Virus record (IMG/VR): IMGVR_UViG_3300030380_004626
Coordinates: 1 to 24,107 of that record
Length of the DNA: 24,107 nt
Direction: 5' to 3' (one strand)
Source of the DNA: a virus
Both the position numbers and the translations under genes were made by a program. Positions 5,024 to 24,107 of this stretch are shown here, one piece after another (position 1 is the first letter of the stretch; every line of letters begins with the position of its first letter). The notes under the pieces were generated by a model, which was not told where the DNA came from, ran no database searches, and saw only the letters and a list, made by a program, of their open reading frames with translations.

Positions 5024-5052
5024 AAAAAGAGGGCGCTGAATACCAGCGCCCT
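5024..5052 (-). terminator. Rho-independent terminator of the replication operon
   Basis: Read on the minus strand: AGGGCGCTG, 5-base loop, CAGCGCCCT, then C and a run of five T. The stem is a perfect 9 bp and GC-rich. It lies 133 bp after the stop of the last early gene (5186) and before the terS leader, so it separates early from packaging transcription on the same strand. Confidence 0.85.
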
Positions 5053-5470: not shown

Positions 5471-5783
5471 CTTTATTCCTTGCCTTGTAAAATGCGTACC
5501 CCTTCACGCTCACAACTTTCACATAATCTCTATCAATCAGGGTTTGCAGTTGTAGGTGCATTTCCCATTCATCCTCGTCCATAGCCCCGCACAAAGTATC
5601 TCTATCAATCAGGCCGTAATCCCTCATGAATGTGAGAAGGTGTAACTCATGCCTTGTTAGCGGCTCTCTCCACTTACGTTTTTTCTTATCATCTGGCAGC
5701 GCTGCACGTAGCCCAAGCTTTGCCCGCCTACGCTCAAACCTCATCATTTGTTCTTTCAATGTTTTCTCATCCACCGTTCTCAA
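5460..5783 (-). CDS. Basic early protein, possible winged-helix, 107 aa
   Basis: An unrecognised protein of up to 107 aa. The N-terminal third is highly basic (MMRFERRRAKLGLRAALPDDKKKRKWREP). The rest, LTRHELHLLTFMRDYGLIDRDTLCGAM followed by LQTLIDRDYVKVV, looks like a winged-helix fold. The start is uncertain: the longest frame uses TTG 5783, but GTG 5774 in the same frame gives a tighter overlap (GTGGATGA) with the upstream stop. Neither has a strong ribosome site. Being in the early operon beside the putative origin, a replication or regulatory DNA-binding role is plausible. Confidence 0.7.
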   Translation of the reverse strand: MRTVDEKTLKEQMMRFERRRAKLGLRAALPDDKKKRKWREPLTRHELHLLTFMRDYGLIDRDTLCGAMDEDEWEMHLQLQTLIDRDYVKVVSVKGYAFYKARNKDEL

Positions 5784-5994
5784 TTTCCCATTTGCGGGTT
5801 AAGATTGCTTGGGCTTGCCATTTGTTCCACAACGGTAGGTCACGTTTATTCAGCCATTTGCGTCTATTAGCCATTCCCTCAAGTTCTGAGATTGTTTTAA
5901 AATCCTTCAAAACCCTGATGAAATCTTTTTCATTTAATGTGGAGTAATCAGGCTCTTTCCAAGCCAGTCTTTTAAGGTCAGCTTCATGTATCAT
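5767..5994 (-). CDS. Early protein of unknown function, 75 aa
   Basis: A 75-aa hydrophilic, mostly helical protein (MIHEADLKRLAWKEPDYSTL start; Trp-rich: WKEPD, KWLNK, LPLWNKW). It follows the iteron region; its ATG overlaps the stop of the 63-aa frame that crosses the iterons (ATGA). No known domain recognised and no membrane segment. Codon-by-codon coupling with both neighbours supports real coding. Confidence 0.65.
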   Translation of the reverse strand: MIHEADLKRLAWKEPDYSTLNEKDFIRVLKDFKTISELEGMANRRKWLNKRDLPLWNKWQAQAILTRKWEIENGG

Positions 5995-6182
5995 TTGAAG
6001 CCCCGTTTGCTAAGCGTAACGGCACAAGTCGTAACAGTAACATCCCTTAAGGGATATGTTACTGATGTTACGCCTACACTTGTCACGTAACAGTTAGCGT
6101 AACAGTGCGTAACACTTCGTAACAGTTGTGCTATTTTATTGTTTATTATTAGATACTTATTAAAACGGCGTTTTTGTGACAT
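5991..6182 (-). CDS. 63-aa reading frame across the iteron array (coding doubtful)
   Basis: ATG 6182 to TGA 5993-5991. The product has recurring VT pairs (SVTHCYANCYVTSVGVTSVTYPL, DVTVTTCAVTL) that are simply the translation of the repeated GTAAC/GTTAC words beneath. A GGCGGGG stretch sits about 8 bases before the ATG, and the end overlaps the next gene as ATGA, so it could be translated. The repeat structure of the DNA is better explained by replication iterons, so this frame may be incidental, or a short peptide whose main duty is to carry ribosomes through the site. Confidence 0.35.
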   Translation of the reverse strand: MSQKRRFNKYLIINNKIAQLLRSVTHCYANCYVTSVGVTSVTYPLRDVTVTTCAVTLSKRGFK

Positions 6183-6190
6183 ACTGTTAC
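6016..6190. other. Putative replication origin: GTAAC iterons plus AT-rich stretch
   Basis: Ten copies of the word GTAAC or its complement GTTAC occur in 175 bases: direct at 6016, 6031, 6037, 6087, 6099, 6109 and 6119; inverted at 6058, 6067 and 6186. The last four direct copies form a tandem array with CGTAACAGT-like units spaced 12, 10 and 10 bases, close to one helical turn. A perfect 14-bp palindrome ATCCCTTAAGGGAT (6042-6055) stands between direct and inverted copies. An AT-rich stretch, about 6131-6165, follows. Iterons next to an AT-rich unwinding region, directly after the primase-helicase gene, is the classical arrangement of a replication origin. The initiator that would bind it is not identified. 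Confidence 0.65.
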
Positions 6191-8112
6191 ACCCCGCCTA
6201 TTTTGTGCTTATTTCGGGCCAACCATAAAAACCCGTCATTTATGGCCATTTCACCCTTATTTAAGAGTCCGTCCCGTGCCCGTTTATAGGACTGTCTTTG
6301 GTTGCCCGTATTTGTTTTTCCGTAGTAGTGATCTTTTAAATCATCTTCATTAATGCACCATCTTGTGCCGCCTTGAGGCCACCCAGCGCCGCTTGGATTT
6401 TCTTTTCCTATGTGCTCACCCCAAAGCTGAATAAAGCATTCCATGAGGATCTTTTCATTTGGGCTAATTTTTACTTTAGCTTCTGCTTTACGTTCATCAG
6501 AAACGGGTATGATATGGCAACTTGTAACCGGGTCACCATCTTCATCTTTACCTAGCTCCACCGTTTGCAGCTCAAAAGCAAATTCTTTATTGGTGGCAAT
6601 GTCACGTTGTTTAGTTGCTTTGGCAAATCTTATGCCTGTTGTTTCATCAACGTCTAATTCTATTTCTGTCGATGTCGCGGCTCTTAAGGAACTATGGCCC
6701 CTAGCTCCGGCCTCATTACCAGCTTTCCCGCTATGGTGCACTGTAAGCACGCTGCATTGGCCGTGAATAGCTAAGCTATCGCTATTAGAAATATATGAAG
6801 TCATAGCCTCTGGCGCGTTTTCGTTACCCCCGGCCATAGCTCTACTAAGTGTATCGATGATTATTAATTCAATTTTACCATGTGTTTCTTTGACCATATC
6901 AATAATGTTAAAGAGCTTTGGTAAGTCTGCATTTGGGTCCAGCATATTAATAGGGCTTGGTCTAATGGCTAAAGGCACGTTTTTATCACCGTAAAAGTCT
7001 TGCACGGCTCTCATACGTGCTAAAAAGCCTTGCCCACCTTCACCCGCCAAATAAAGAACGGTTCCTTGATTAACTCTATTACCGTGCCAATCCCGTCCAG
7101 CGGCTATGTGATAAGCCAGGTCTAGGGTAAAGAATGATTTACCCACGTTAGATTGCCCATATACAACGGTCATTTGCTGAGCGCCTAGCCAGCCTTTAAT
7201 GAGATAGTTTGATTTCAAGACGGGTTCAGCATCATCTATCCAAACCAGCTCATCTAAAATGCTTTCAGGTGTAACCAGTTTGTTGAGTTGGTCAGCTACG
7301 GCTTTTAAACCAAGACTTACATGAAGGTCATTAAAGTCTGTGTTTTTAGCTTTAGGTACTGCATACGGTCTACCAGTCTTTCTAGCGGCTTCCTGACCCC
7401 CGCCATCAGCATCGTTATCAGCGGCTACAAATACATCCAATTGTGGCCATGTTTCTGCTAGGGCTTCACAAACTGGAACTAAGTTTGATTTATCCAAACC
7501 AAAAAGCACCGGGGTAGGGTCACCGTTAGCTTGAAGCGCCATTCTTATTGAAACGCTTGTGGCCCATCCCTCAGCTAACCAGACTTTGCCGGGTGTATCT
7601 GTGTCTAGGGTTCCTACTACCCCAAATATTCCTGAACTTTTTGAAAGTCCCTTATTAAATCTTTTACTTGAGTCCGGGTATATAGTTTGAATACCTATTT
7701 GCTCTTTTTTGGTATTAAACAACGGAACTACTACGTTGTTACCGTCAAGCTCAGCCCCTATAAGGTCCACTTTCTTTTTTATATGGTAAGGTAGCAGATC
7801 ATCAAAACCATGCGCTGTAGCGCTGTTTATAGGCACTACATTATCATTTTTCTGGTTAGGTACTGGCCAGCAACCATCATGTTCAAGAATGGAAACTATA
7901 TCTGAGAAGCTTTGGCATTGCCGACATTGAAATTTAACTAAGCCGTCTGAGCTAGGGTTTATCCAAAACCTAGTGCTTGGCCAGTCATTATGACCGCAAC
8001 TTGGGCACGCTCCATGCCATTCTTTTGACCCGGAGCCCTGCGGCTTCAGGTCATATCTTTGTATTATTTTATCAGCCCATTCAGACCAATACGCTTTAGG
8101 GTAATCATCCAT
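6187..8112 (-). CDS. Replicative primase-helicase (zinc finger, TOPRIM, RecA-like ATPase)
   Basis: A 641-aa protein in one chain. Residues 36-66 form a primase-type zinc ribbon (CPSC at 36-39 and CRQC at 63-66). A TOPRIM domain follows, with E181 in WLAEGWA and an acidic cluster D232, D234, D236 in AADNDADGG. From about 290 comes a RepA/AAA_25-like ATPase with Walker A GQSNVGKSF at 319-327 and Walker B near IIIDTLSRAM. The last 90 residues look like a winged-helix module. It would lay primers and unwind DNA at the fork. It lies after the ssDNA-binding protein and directly before the putative origin. No DNA polymerase gene is seen in the window, so polymerase may come from the host or from elsewhere in the genome. 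Confidence 0.9.
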   Translation of the reverse strand: MDDYPKAYWSEWADKIIQRYDLKPQGSGSKEWHGACPSCGHNDWPSTRFWINPSSDGLVKFQCRQCQSFSDIVSILEHDGCWPVPNQKNDNVVPINSATAHGFDDLLPYHIKKKVDLIGAELDGNNVVVPLFNTKKEQIGIQTIYPDSSKRFNKGLSKSSGIFGVVGTLDTDTPGKVWLAEGWATSVSIRMALQANGDPTPVLFGLDKSNLVPVCEALAETWPQLDVFVAADNDADGGGQEAARKTGRPYAVPKAKNTDFNDLHVSLGLKAVADQLNKLVTPESILDELVWIDDAEPVLKSNYLIKGWLGAQQMTVVYGQSNVGKSFFTLDLAYHIAAGRDWHGNRVNQGTVLYLAGEGGQGFLARMRAVQDFYGDKNVPLAIRPSPINMLDPNADLPKLFNIIDMVKETHGKIELIIIDTLSRAMAGGNENAPEAMTSYISNSDSLAIHGQCSVLTVHHSGKAGNEAGARGHSSLRAATSTEIELDVDETTGIRFAKATKQRDIATNKEFAFELQTVELGKDEDGDPVTSCHIIPVSDERKAEAKVKISPNEKILMECFIQLWGEHIGKENPSGAGWPQGGTRWCINEDDLKDHYYGKTNTGNQRQSYKRARDGLLNKGEMAINDGFLWLARNKHKIGGV

Positions 8113-11945: not shown

Positions 11946-12134
11946 ATGACTATACAAGTACAAGACACTCGTGAGCGTAACTATTGGCGTATGCAAGTGG
12001 ATCAAATTACCAGATCAGTTAAAAGCGCTGAATTTTACTTTGAAAAAATAAAAGGGGAGGCGGGTGAAACGCCACTTCCTGAGCTTATGAATGAGTTAAA
12101 ATTATTAACAAAAAAAATTGAGGACGTAAGGTGA
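11946..12134 (+). CDS. Small charged protein, 62 aa
   Basis: ATG 11946 preceded by GAGGAT at 11 bases. The protein starts MTIQVQDTRERNYWRMQVDQ and is predicted mostly helical with a coiled-coil-like C-terminus (LPELMNELKLLTKKIEDV). The end overlaps the recombinase-like gene (TGATG), which indicates translational coupling with it. Function unknown; the coupling suggests a partner role. Confidence 0.6.
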   Translation: MTIQVQDTRERNYWRMQVDQITRSVKSAEFYFEKIKGEAGETPLPELMNELKLLTKKIEDVR

Positions 12135-12943
12135 TGTATAAATTTTATAGACATCCAGATAACCGCCCTTATGCTGATAAATTAAAAACCAACCAAAAAG
12201 GTAGGCATTTGAAAGCGGGAGTTTTTATATTTGGGGGCACTGATGTTAATCAGCAAGGCCAGCGAAAAGCAAACAAAGAGCTTTTTAAGGGTTCAAAATC
12301 CAACGTAAAGTACTTTGTTGAAGAAAATCACCATCAGAAGCGACACGCTGAGGATAGGGACCAATTAATGGCGGCGGCTAGGTATTGCCGTACCGCTGAT
12401 GCAACGTTTGTTGTGTCAACGCTTAAGGGGTTCTTTCCTACCAGGTGGGAGGCTTTAAGCTGGATGTTATCTCAAACAAATCTGTATAAAACTCATTTTT
12501 TAGTTGCAGACGACCCAGCAATTAACAGGGGCAGTATAGCTTTAATGAGTGCTCAAGCTGATGAACAACGTCACAGAATAGCACAAAGTTCAAAAGACGC
12601 ATTAGAAGATATAAAAAAGAAACTTGCCGCTGGAATTCCAATTGTGGCTAAATCTAGTGGCCGTACAGTCACGAAGTTGGGTATTCATGAGGGTCTAACT
12701 GAAAGCCAACAAAAGGGTAATGAGGAGCAAGCACGTTTAGCACGGGAACGTGATAAAAAATATTTACCTGAAATAATGAAACTGCAAGCGCTCGGAATGG
12801 GTTATAATGCCATTGCGCGTCAATTTAACATGATGAATGTACCAACTCCATCTATTCAGAGAAGGCAAAAGTCAGAAACCACTGGAGAATGGTATGCTAG
12901 TACCGTTAGAAATATTGTTCTTCGTAATGAGGAGCAAGACTAA
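12134..12943 (+). CDS. Serine-recombinase homologue lacking catalytic residues
   Basis: A 269-aa protein. Residues 60-165 follow the resolvase fold: YFVEENHHQKRHAEDRDQLM, then ARYCRTADATFVVSTLKG, then FLVADDPAINRGSIALMSAQ and the long helix ADEQRHRIAQSSKDALEDIKK. The C-terminal part (ALGMGYNAIARQFNMMNVPT, then GEWYASTVRNIVLRN) is the helix-turn-helix Recombinase domain (PF07508-like). But the YxRVST start of the enzyme is replaced by FGGTDVNQQGQ, with no Ser at all before residue 54, and the LDRLaR motif reads LKGFFP. It therefore should not cut DNA and may act as a DNA-binding regulator. ATG 12134 is used; GTG 12131 is the alternative. Confidence 0.75.
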   Translation: MYKFYRHPDNRPYADKLKTNQKGRHLKAGVFIFGGTDVNQQGQRKANKELFKGSKSNVKYFVEENHHQKRHAEDRDQLMAAARYCRTADATFVVSTLKGFFPTRWEALSWMLSQTNLYKTHFLVADDPAINRGSIALMSAQADEQRHRIAQSSKDALEDIKKKLAAGIPIVAKSSGRTVTKLGIHEGLTESQQKGNEEQARLARERDKKYLPEIMKLQALGMGYNAIARQFNMMNVPTPSIQRRQKSETTGEWYASTVRNIVLRNEEQD

Positions 12944-22560: not shown

Positions 22561-24107
22561 TATCTACCACTCCCGCCTAATAATCCTATCATGGATGATG
22601 ACAGATCACCGCCACCCCTTGCGCCTTGTGTCATTCCTATTCCCCTAGCTGTATCAGCCGCCGCCCTATCTAATGGGCGACCTACATTCCTAATTAGAAG
22701 ATTTCCTAGTTTAGCTAATGCGCCATCATCCACTAATGCACGCTGTAATATTGCCGGGTCAGTAGTTGTTAAGATTTTTGCAAGTTGTCTGTTTTCAGCT
22801 TCAGTTAGCCCACGCCCAAATTTGTTAGCTATAGCGTTCCCAACCTGACCTATTAGCATGCCAGGGTTATTTATTGGGTTAACAGCGGTCATAGCTGCCC
22901 TAGATAAAAACCCATCACGAGCAAAGAATTTACCTTCATTTATACCCTCAGTAGTAATTGACCCGGATAATATTCTATCACTAGCCTTTTTAGACTCGTT
23001 GGCTACCTCAAGCTTTCTGAACACGCTTTCAACGCTTTCTTCAGGTAGTATCTTATCTAAAACTTGAGCCGTATGATTTTCAATATCACCTAAATCTTTA
23101 ATCATTGAAGCTTTTTGCTTCCCTACAAATTTATTTTGTAAGGTCATTAGAAAACCTGTTCTGTAAGCATTTAATTCAGCATCAGCCCCAGCTAGAGCTG
23201 CATCTAGCTCATCACCTTGTAAATTTTTGTTTTTAATTGCATCAATAGCATCCTCACGCTTTTTCAATAATTTGTTAAGCTGGATCATTTTTTCGCCGGG
23301 CTTCCCAGCAAGTGCTTCTTCACCAAACTTAAAAGCGTCTTTTTCTAAATTCATAGCTTTAGCTTGCGCCCTAGTTGACGCTAGAGCTGGCAAGTTTTGA
23401 TCCATAATATCACGTAGTTCTTTGGCTACTTCATCATATTCTTTACCAACATAACCACTTGTCCCCATTTTTCCGAATTCTTTGCTGGTAATAGCATCAG
23501 CGCCCCGCCTAATCATTTCAATTTCTTCAACGCTTGGCTTTTTGTTCAATCGGAAGTCACCTTTAGCTATATTAAGCTTTTTAGCCTCATCAGCATCAGT
23601 AACTTTTGTAATTACATCTTTATATGGCTCACCCGTCATAGGGTCTATTTTGCCAGTTCTTGTTTTCTGAACTTTTTGTATAGGCTTGCCAACTCCCGGC
23701 AATCTATTAACCGCGTCAATCATTGCGTCATCAACAACATTTGGAGCCGTTTGCGTTTTAAACGGGTCATACATTACTTTCTGTTGATCTTTCATTTCAT
23801 CTAGTCGGTTATCCCGTCTAAGTGTTGCGCTTGTTCCATCACCGCCTAATGCTTCATCAACTTGACCCATGGCAATATTTCTAGTTTCACCGGGCCTTAC
23901 TTGCGCTGCCCTAGTTATTTCCTCACCGCCTGGCTGACTTCTTAAAGCTTTCATTGCAGCGTTTAATGTTTCATTTTCAGATAGTATTTTGCCATCAATT
24001 AAATCTTGGATAACTTCACCTTCTGGTTTTCCAGTTTTAACAACAAGCCGTTGTACTTCATTATTAACAATGTTTTCACCTCTACGGCCCACTAGCAATT
24101 TAGCTTG
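22560..24107 (-). CDS. Internal virion-like protein, 5' end outside the window
   Basis: The frame is open from the right edge (515 residues) and ends TAA overlapping the portal ATG. A TTG at 24098 lies in frame but the reading continues to the edge, so the true start is likely beyond it. The protein is rich in charged helices (NLEKDAFKFGEEALAGKPGE, KLLKKREDAIDAIKNKNL) with a hydrophobic glycine-rich segment near the end (NPINNPGMLIGQVGNAIANK) and a low-complexity tail. This suits a large internal or ejection protein, but no catalytic domain is visible in this part. Gene order (just before portal) is unusual for T7-like phages. Confidence 0.65.
   Translation of the reverse strand, partial: QAKLLVGRRGENIVNNEVQRLVVKTGKPEGEVIQDLIDGKILSENETLNAAMKALRSQPGGEEITRAAQVRPGETRNIAMGQVDEALGGDGTSATLRRDNRLDEMKDQQKVMYDPFKTQTAPNVVDDAMIDAVNRLPGVGKPIQKVQKTRTGKIDPMTGEPYKDVITKVTDADEAKKLNIAKGDFRLNKKPSVEEIEMIRRGADAITSKEFGKMGTSGYVGKEYDEVAKELRDIMDQNLPALASTRAQAKAMNLEKDAFKFGEEALAGKPGEKMIQLNKLLKKREDAIDAIKNKNLQGDELDAALAGADAELNAYRTGFLMTLQNKFVGKQKASMIKDLGDIENHTAQVLDKILPEESVESVFRKLEVANESKKASDRILSGSITTEGINEGKFFARDGFLSRAAMTAVNPINNPGMLIGQVGNAIANKFGRGLTEAENRQLAKILTTTDPAILQRALVDDGALAKLGNLLIRNVGRPLDRAAADTARGIGMTQGARGGGDLSSSMIGLLGGSGR

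Follow-up and report, generated by a model that had tools for sequence, protein, structure and literature searches.

What lies behind the primase-helicase gene of this marine phage? The window, by which we mean the whole stretch of DNA analysed here, is a 24.1-kb IMG/VR virus record from an SU10-portal-type phage, and its leftward primase-helicase gene ends in an array of short repeats:

6187-8112, minus strand: gene for a primase-helicase with a Toprim-like primase part, an AAA_25/RepA-type helicase part and a winged helix at its C-terminus; the proposed origin-binding initiator
6190-6462, minus strand: winged helix at the C-terminal end of the helicase (approximately residues 551-641, the last ~90; recognition helix 605-618)
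6176-6190, minus strand: left word pair, GTAAC at 6186-6190 (on the stop codon) and degenerate GTCAC at 6176-6180; in relatives, both words of this pair are intact
6126-6165, no strand: AT-rich stretch (85% AT) between the left pair and the direct words, the proposed melting site
6087-6123, plus strand: four direct GTAAC words at 6087, 6099, 6109 and 6119, spacing 12-10-10
6058-6071, minus strand: two inverted words, 6058-6062 and 6067-6071
6042-6055, no strand: palindrome ATCCCTTAAGGGAT, its core kept in relatives with different words
6016-6041, plus strand: right words at 6016, 6031 and 6037
5767-5994, minus strand: small ANRRK gene (..ELEGMANRRKWL..), adjoining the array and kept there in many relatives

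Followed along the reading direction of the helicase, the array opens with an inverted pair at the stop codon (the second copy degenerate) and continues with the AT-rich stretch, four direct words spaced by about one helical turn and, beyond a spacer, two inverted words, then the palindrome and finally three direct words. The initial annotation had counted ten GTAAC/GTTAC words in 175 bp, and all were found (6016, 6031, 6037, 6087, 6099, 6109 and 6119 direct; 6058, 6067 and 6186 on the minus strand); recomputing the 12-10-10 spacing of the last four direct copies gave the same values, and the perfect 14-bp palindrome is present between the direct (6031, 6037) and inverted (6058, 6067) copies. 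The reported AT-rich stretch is borne out by the 40-mer at 6126, which ranks in the window's top 0.06%, and the placing of the array immediately after the primase-helicase gene is exact, since the word at 6186-6190 overlaps the stop codon at 6187-6189. To these words we add a degenerate GTGAC (6176-6180), 10 bp from the word at 6186-6190, with which it makes the left-hand pair. To gauge chance, 2000 copies of the window were simulated with a first-order Markov model, and none had a 175-bp stretch with more than five GTAAC/GTTAC words; with any 5-mer allowed, 1 of 200 simulated copies reached ten.

The gene product matches AAA_25 in Pfam (E 9e-38) and, weakly, Toprim_3. The sole sequence relative of the helicase in the PDB is RepA of RSF1010 (1g8y, E 7e-9), and the helicase model is closest to T7 gp4 and RepA. 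Besides a full-length model, an AF2 model of the tail domain was made (pLDDT 87.8), with the order helix-strand-helix-helix-strand-strand; a fold search with this tail matched nothing more specific than generic winged helices (Z 8-9; ORC and CRP among them), and we therefore claim no family for it. Two of its residues, T602 and R606, are word-associated, with R606 starting the recognition helix (numbering from the ATG; R606 becomes 613 when the seven residues upstream of the ATG are included).

On the other side of the array, the ANRRK gene, possibly encoding a replication accessory protein, was found in 31 of 137 loci (loose pattern) and keeps its place next to the array when the helicase lies 5-7 kb off. 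A general role of the array as operator of this gene was rejected, the gene not being beside most arrays by the same loose pattern. Further along the window, a terminator-like hairpin (AGGGCGCTGGTATTCAGCGCCCT, then CTTTTT; 5030-5052, minus strand) separates the early operon from terminase-like genes, and a serine-recombinase-like gene with a weak Recombinase match (12131-12943, plus strand) belongs to a divergent rightward operon. No DnaA box (TTWTNCACA) was found near the array, an Rfam search gave no match, and a promoter/terminator scan showed no excess, with a single promoter-like site near the array, fewer than in shuffles. A GC-skew minimum had been anticipated at the array; instead, cumulative skew falls through the site and reaches its minimum at 24092, the window end. 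Skew is uninformative on the origin here because it follows gene direction (transcription). Our literature search found no description of such an array, and the word 'repeat' is absent from the paper on CRP-822-type roseophages.

Conserved layout and rewritten words among relatives

Relatives were drawn from IMG/VR, phage records, plasmids and bacterial genomes, most loci being metagenomic fragments. Their helicase is of the AAA_25/RepA type, usually fused to a Toprim primase. In the first set of relatives, an array of the same anatomy follows the helicase stop codon in all loci inspected, with a word that differs by family; among more distant phages, the array is present in most, not all. The common layout consists of inverted words around an AT-rich stretch, followed by inverted words around a CC-TWWA-GG palindrome. 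Whereas the words vary (GTAACA, GTACCA, ATACCA, GTATAA, CTACAA, CGTGAC, GGTTCA, GGTACA, GGGTCA, GGGACA and CGACAC, among others), the general spacing is kept, the AT-rich stretch is kept in many families, and the palindrome is kept with a core of CCTATAGG, CCCTTTAGGG, ACCTTTAGGT or CCTTAAGG.

In a set of 317 loci that includes near-identical records, the 300 bp around the helicase stop codon were the single most repeat-rich window of the locus in 179, while in many of the loci the top repeat window was not after the stop codon. A word repeated five or more times accompanied 170 distinct C-termini. The search of related phages proposed in the initial annotation thus turned up conserved arrays after the helicase in marine phages, other phages, phage-plasmids and satellites, including arrays beside the AAA_25 helicases of E. 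coli satellites, a Klebsiella satellite-like record and two circular phage-plasmids. The outcome it had feared, relatives keeping a protein frame and losing the repeats, did not materialise, as the array architecture and not the frame is what is conserved; the rewriting of the word between relatives was a feature it had not foreseen.

Several relatives carry an N-terminal primase of another type, with the array still present. The palindrome as a recognition site of the primase was accordingly weakened as a candidate: 16-3 (Prim-Pol) and CRP-821 (no Toprim match) keep their arrays, and CRP-821 also keeps the CCCTTTAGGG palindrome.

One subgroup of relatives had no array in the fetched flanks. 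These relatives seemed to contradict the pattern until two of them were read as full records: in both, an array built in the same way precedes the small ANRRK gene, at 5-7 kb from the helicase, and its words (TAATAC, TCATAC) are those expected with arginine; in the first of the two, AT-rich words make the word count less clear-cut. At such a distance, the array is no RNA element at the 3' end of the helicase gene. Displaced repeats were also seen in L161 and L163, where 13 CGGACG words lie ~680 bp after the helicase stop codon instead of adjoining it, and L187 carries 19 copies of GCCAGA in 250 bp (~1175-1425), away from the helicase.

Co-variation between the winged helix and the word

In the window's clan, residue 606 is the best of 567 helicase columns for base 6 of the word (MI/joint entropy 0.83; runner-up 0.34): R goes with C (21/21), S or N with T (11/11), D or T with G (4/4) and W with A (one case). 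Within the subset TGNTAN, residue 602 is the best column for base 3 (0.78; next 0.60), T occurring with T, and A or V with G. With the C-terminal domain left out of the tree, independent pairs agree on residue 606 in 7 of 7 cases (p 0.016), or in all nine when unsupported branches are used. For residue 602 there are two independent pairs only, and its link to the word could therefore reflect kinship. In a distant second clan, residues 615-640 of L028, within the same domain, make up 26 of 660 columns and account for 12 of the 20 columns with the strongest link to the word.

The residue-to-base rule was frozen before new loci were fetched. Scored on those of their distinct, new C-termini that came with an unambiguous word, it held in 23 of 32 (R 5/5, D 5/5, N 4/4, T 2/2, S 7/16), serine being a loose predictor of the word base; in 15 further held-out loci, the residues lay outside the rule. 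All nine misses came from a single lineage with residue S, whose TAGTAT/TAGTAG words had been read from the opposite strand as TACTAA. Once its words are put in the expected register, the lineage mainly shows T or a T/G mixture at this base, which was seen afterwards and not scored as a match. Mixed TGGTAT, TGGTAC and TGGTAG words follow the helicase stop codon in L041 and L066, whose helicases carry V602/S606; these two loci are possibly caught between specificities.

As the word switches from one related phage to another, specific residues of the tail switch too, for the most part predictably, and co-variation of this kind makes it very likely that the helicase tail domain reads the repeat word. 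The initial annotation had looked to the early DNA-binding proteins as binders; going by the co-variation, the likely binder is the helicase's own C-terminal domain.

How quickly do these specificities change? We compared pairs whose helicase bodies are at least 85% identical in DNA. Where the two phages share the word (n=63), the array is the best-conserved stretch (median 95.1%). Where the words differ (n=12, several pairs sharing a phage), identity is 91.9% in the body, 72.5% in the C-terminus, 60.8% in the array and 87.2% downstream, so that near-identical phages with different words differ mainly in the C-terminal domain and the array, whereas same-word pairs do not. CRP-831 and CRP-823, for example, show ~95% before the array, 46-65% across it and 95% after it. 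The source of the switch may be either cassette exchange by recombination or fast divergence in place.

A candidate origin, probably read by its own helicase

The array at 6016-6190 resembles a phage replication origin, a reading that is supported by the conservation of its architecture after the helicase in relatives. By analogy with SaPI/PICI Rep-ori modules and from the sequence comparisons above, we consider it highly probable that the array serves as the origin and that the RepA/T7-type helicase itself acts as the origin-binding initiator. The words would be bound by the protein's C-terminal winged helix, as the co-variation suggests. Bound copies, phased by roughly one helical turn and flanking the AT-rich stretch at 6126-6165, would melt that stretch, and the helicase ring would be loaded there, both steps being modelled on SaPI/PICI and SCC replicons; the fused primase would then prime. 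The mirrored module around the palindrome would be read by something that stays constant as the word changes, perhaps a host factor or a structural step. Since word and winged helix change together, relatives probably acquire origins that do not cross-react.

Alternatively, the words could be operators, bound by the helicase or another protein, that control the helicase operon or the downstream small gene and play no part in initiation. Such operators would be compatible with binding by the helicase tail, and the array does lie inside a leftward operon, often followed by a small conserved gene; yet the gene after the array varies between families, inverted words flanking an AT-rich stretch together with a palindrome fit origins better, and the one promoter-like site near the array is fewer than shuffles yield. 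We regard this alternative as unlikely. The array could also be an origin whose words are bound by a separate phage protein, with the helicase tail co-varying through contact with that protein. A precedent is RSF1010, where RepC, a protein of its own, melts the oriV at which RepA is loaded (PMC8965321, citing Scherzinger 1991). In the present case, however, the columns most closely linked to the word lie in the turn and the recognition helix of the winged helix, and no other gene adjoins the array in all families, which renders a separate binder very unlikely. A packaging (pac/cos) or partition site might be suspected from the terminase small-subunit-like gene 1.3 kb from the array in the window, but the co-variation is with the helicase, and arrays adjoin the helicase also in phages and satellites with different genes behind them; we give this reading next to no weight. 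That the words arose by chance, or are coding repeats of the 63-aa frame that is open across them at 5991-6182 and is probably spurious, is scarcely credible and is refuted by the conserved layout, the count having been reached in 0 of 2000 simulations and relatives rewriting the words yet keeping the spacing and palindrome.

The proposed reading of an origin by its own helicase is reminiscent of several known systems. The phage P4 alpha protein, as is proposed for the window's, combines primase, helicase and origin binder in one polypeptide, though with a different helicase class and with separate ori and crr; alpha and crr are named in PMC6092414. In SaPI/PICI and SCC elements, iterons that closely follow the helicase gene are recognised by the C-terminal domain of its product (PMC7581432), and an origin of similar layout supports replication with its initiator (PMC6092414). 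In the SaPI/PICI Rep-ori replicon (PMC6092414; Ubeda 2007 as cited in PMC7581432), the origin lies directly 3' of the initiator-helicase gene and two sets of short iterons flank an AT-rich stretch, as in the window (6176-6190 and 6087-6123 around 6126-6165); the 3' location, with a word on the stop codon, recurs in 179/317 relatives as a likeness of position. Where the C-terminal domain recognises the iterons in SaPI/PICI, the window's clan offers a strong tail-word co-variation that would fit the same role. Unlike these satellites, the window has an SU10-type portal and terminase-like genes of its own, an added palindrome module, and an AAA_25 RepA/T7-like helicase with Toprim-like primase; the tested EcCICFT073 Pri-Rep initiator is D5-type by our own determination, and SaPIbov1 Rep is DUF927-type (PMC7581432). 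Our data suggest that the SaPI/PICI-type origin layout serves ordinary phages as well, together with a different class of helicase. In SCCmec Cch2, which has a direct-repeat origin, the C-terminal domain in isolation binds repeats that lie downstream of the gene, in the same position as here, but the helicase is D5-related, the iterons number three and the primase-polymerase is separate (PMC7581432). IncQ RSF1010 RepA (1g8y) shares the helicase family, the window's helicase presumably being a hexamer too; RSF1010 has a separate RepC at the origin and a separate primase, whereas helicase, primase and probable DNA-binding domain form one protein in the window. No RepC-like iteron-binding protein was recognised in the window, where several small genes stay unassigned. 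Finally, in PLE RepA/ori, the initiator's DNA-binding domain and the origin swap together between otherwise similar elements, as here, albeit with a RepA_N initiator, ~30-bp iterons and a satellite lifestyle (PMC8263062). The PLE swaps are probably driven by an origin-targeting nuclease, Odn (PMC8263062); that nuclease-like pressure drives the switching in our phages as well is speculation by analogy.

The Rep-ori scheme as such is already known, and what is of interest here is the visible protein-DNA code and the rapid switching of origins. There may be, with even chances in our judgement, an unnamed and very large class of self-recruiting initiator helicases of the RepA/T7 type with a tail winged helix, in which words and residues are rewritten together by a largely readable residue-to-base code, giving near-identical phages non-cross-reacting origins and probably an escape from origin-targeting rivals or satellites, with the word-independent palindrome as an undescribed second origin element. 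Most phage origins are unknown, and a conserved layout next to a common helicase would allow them to be located by sequence in marine phages, phage-plasmids and satellites by the hundreds. The natural word switches, moreover, form a ready series for learning how a winged helix reads DNA, and their speed raises the question of the selector: origin-targeting nucleases, satellites or competition at the origin. Among the plasmid records, the Klebsiella entry CP018459.1, a 17-kb circle with capsid, terminase, tail-measure and integrase genes, an AAA_25 helicase and a GCCGCA array, resembles a phage satellite more than a plasmid.
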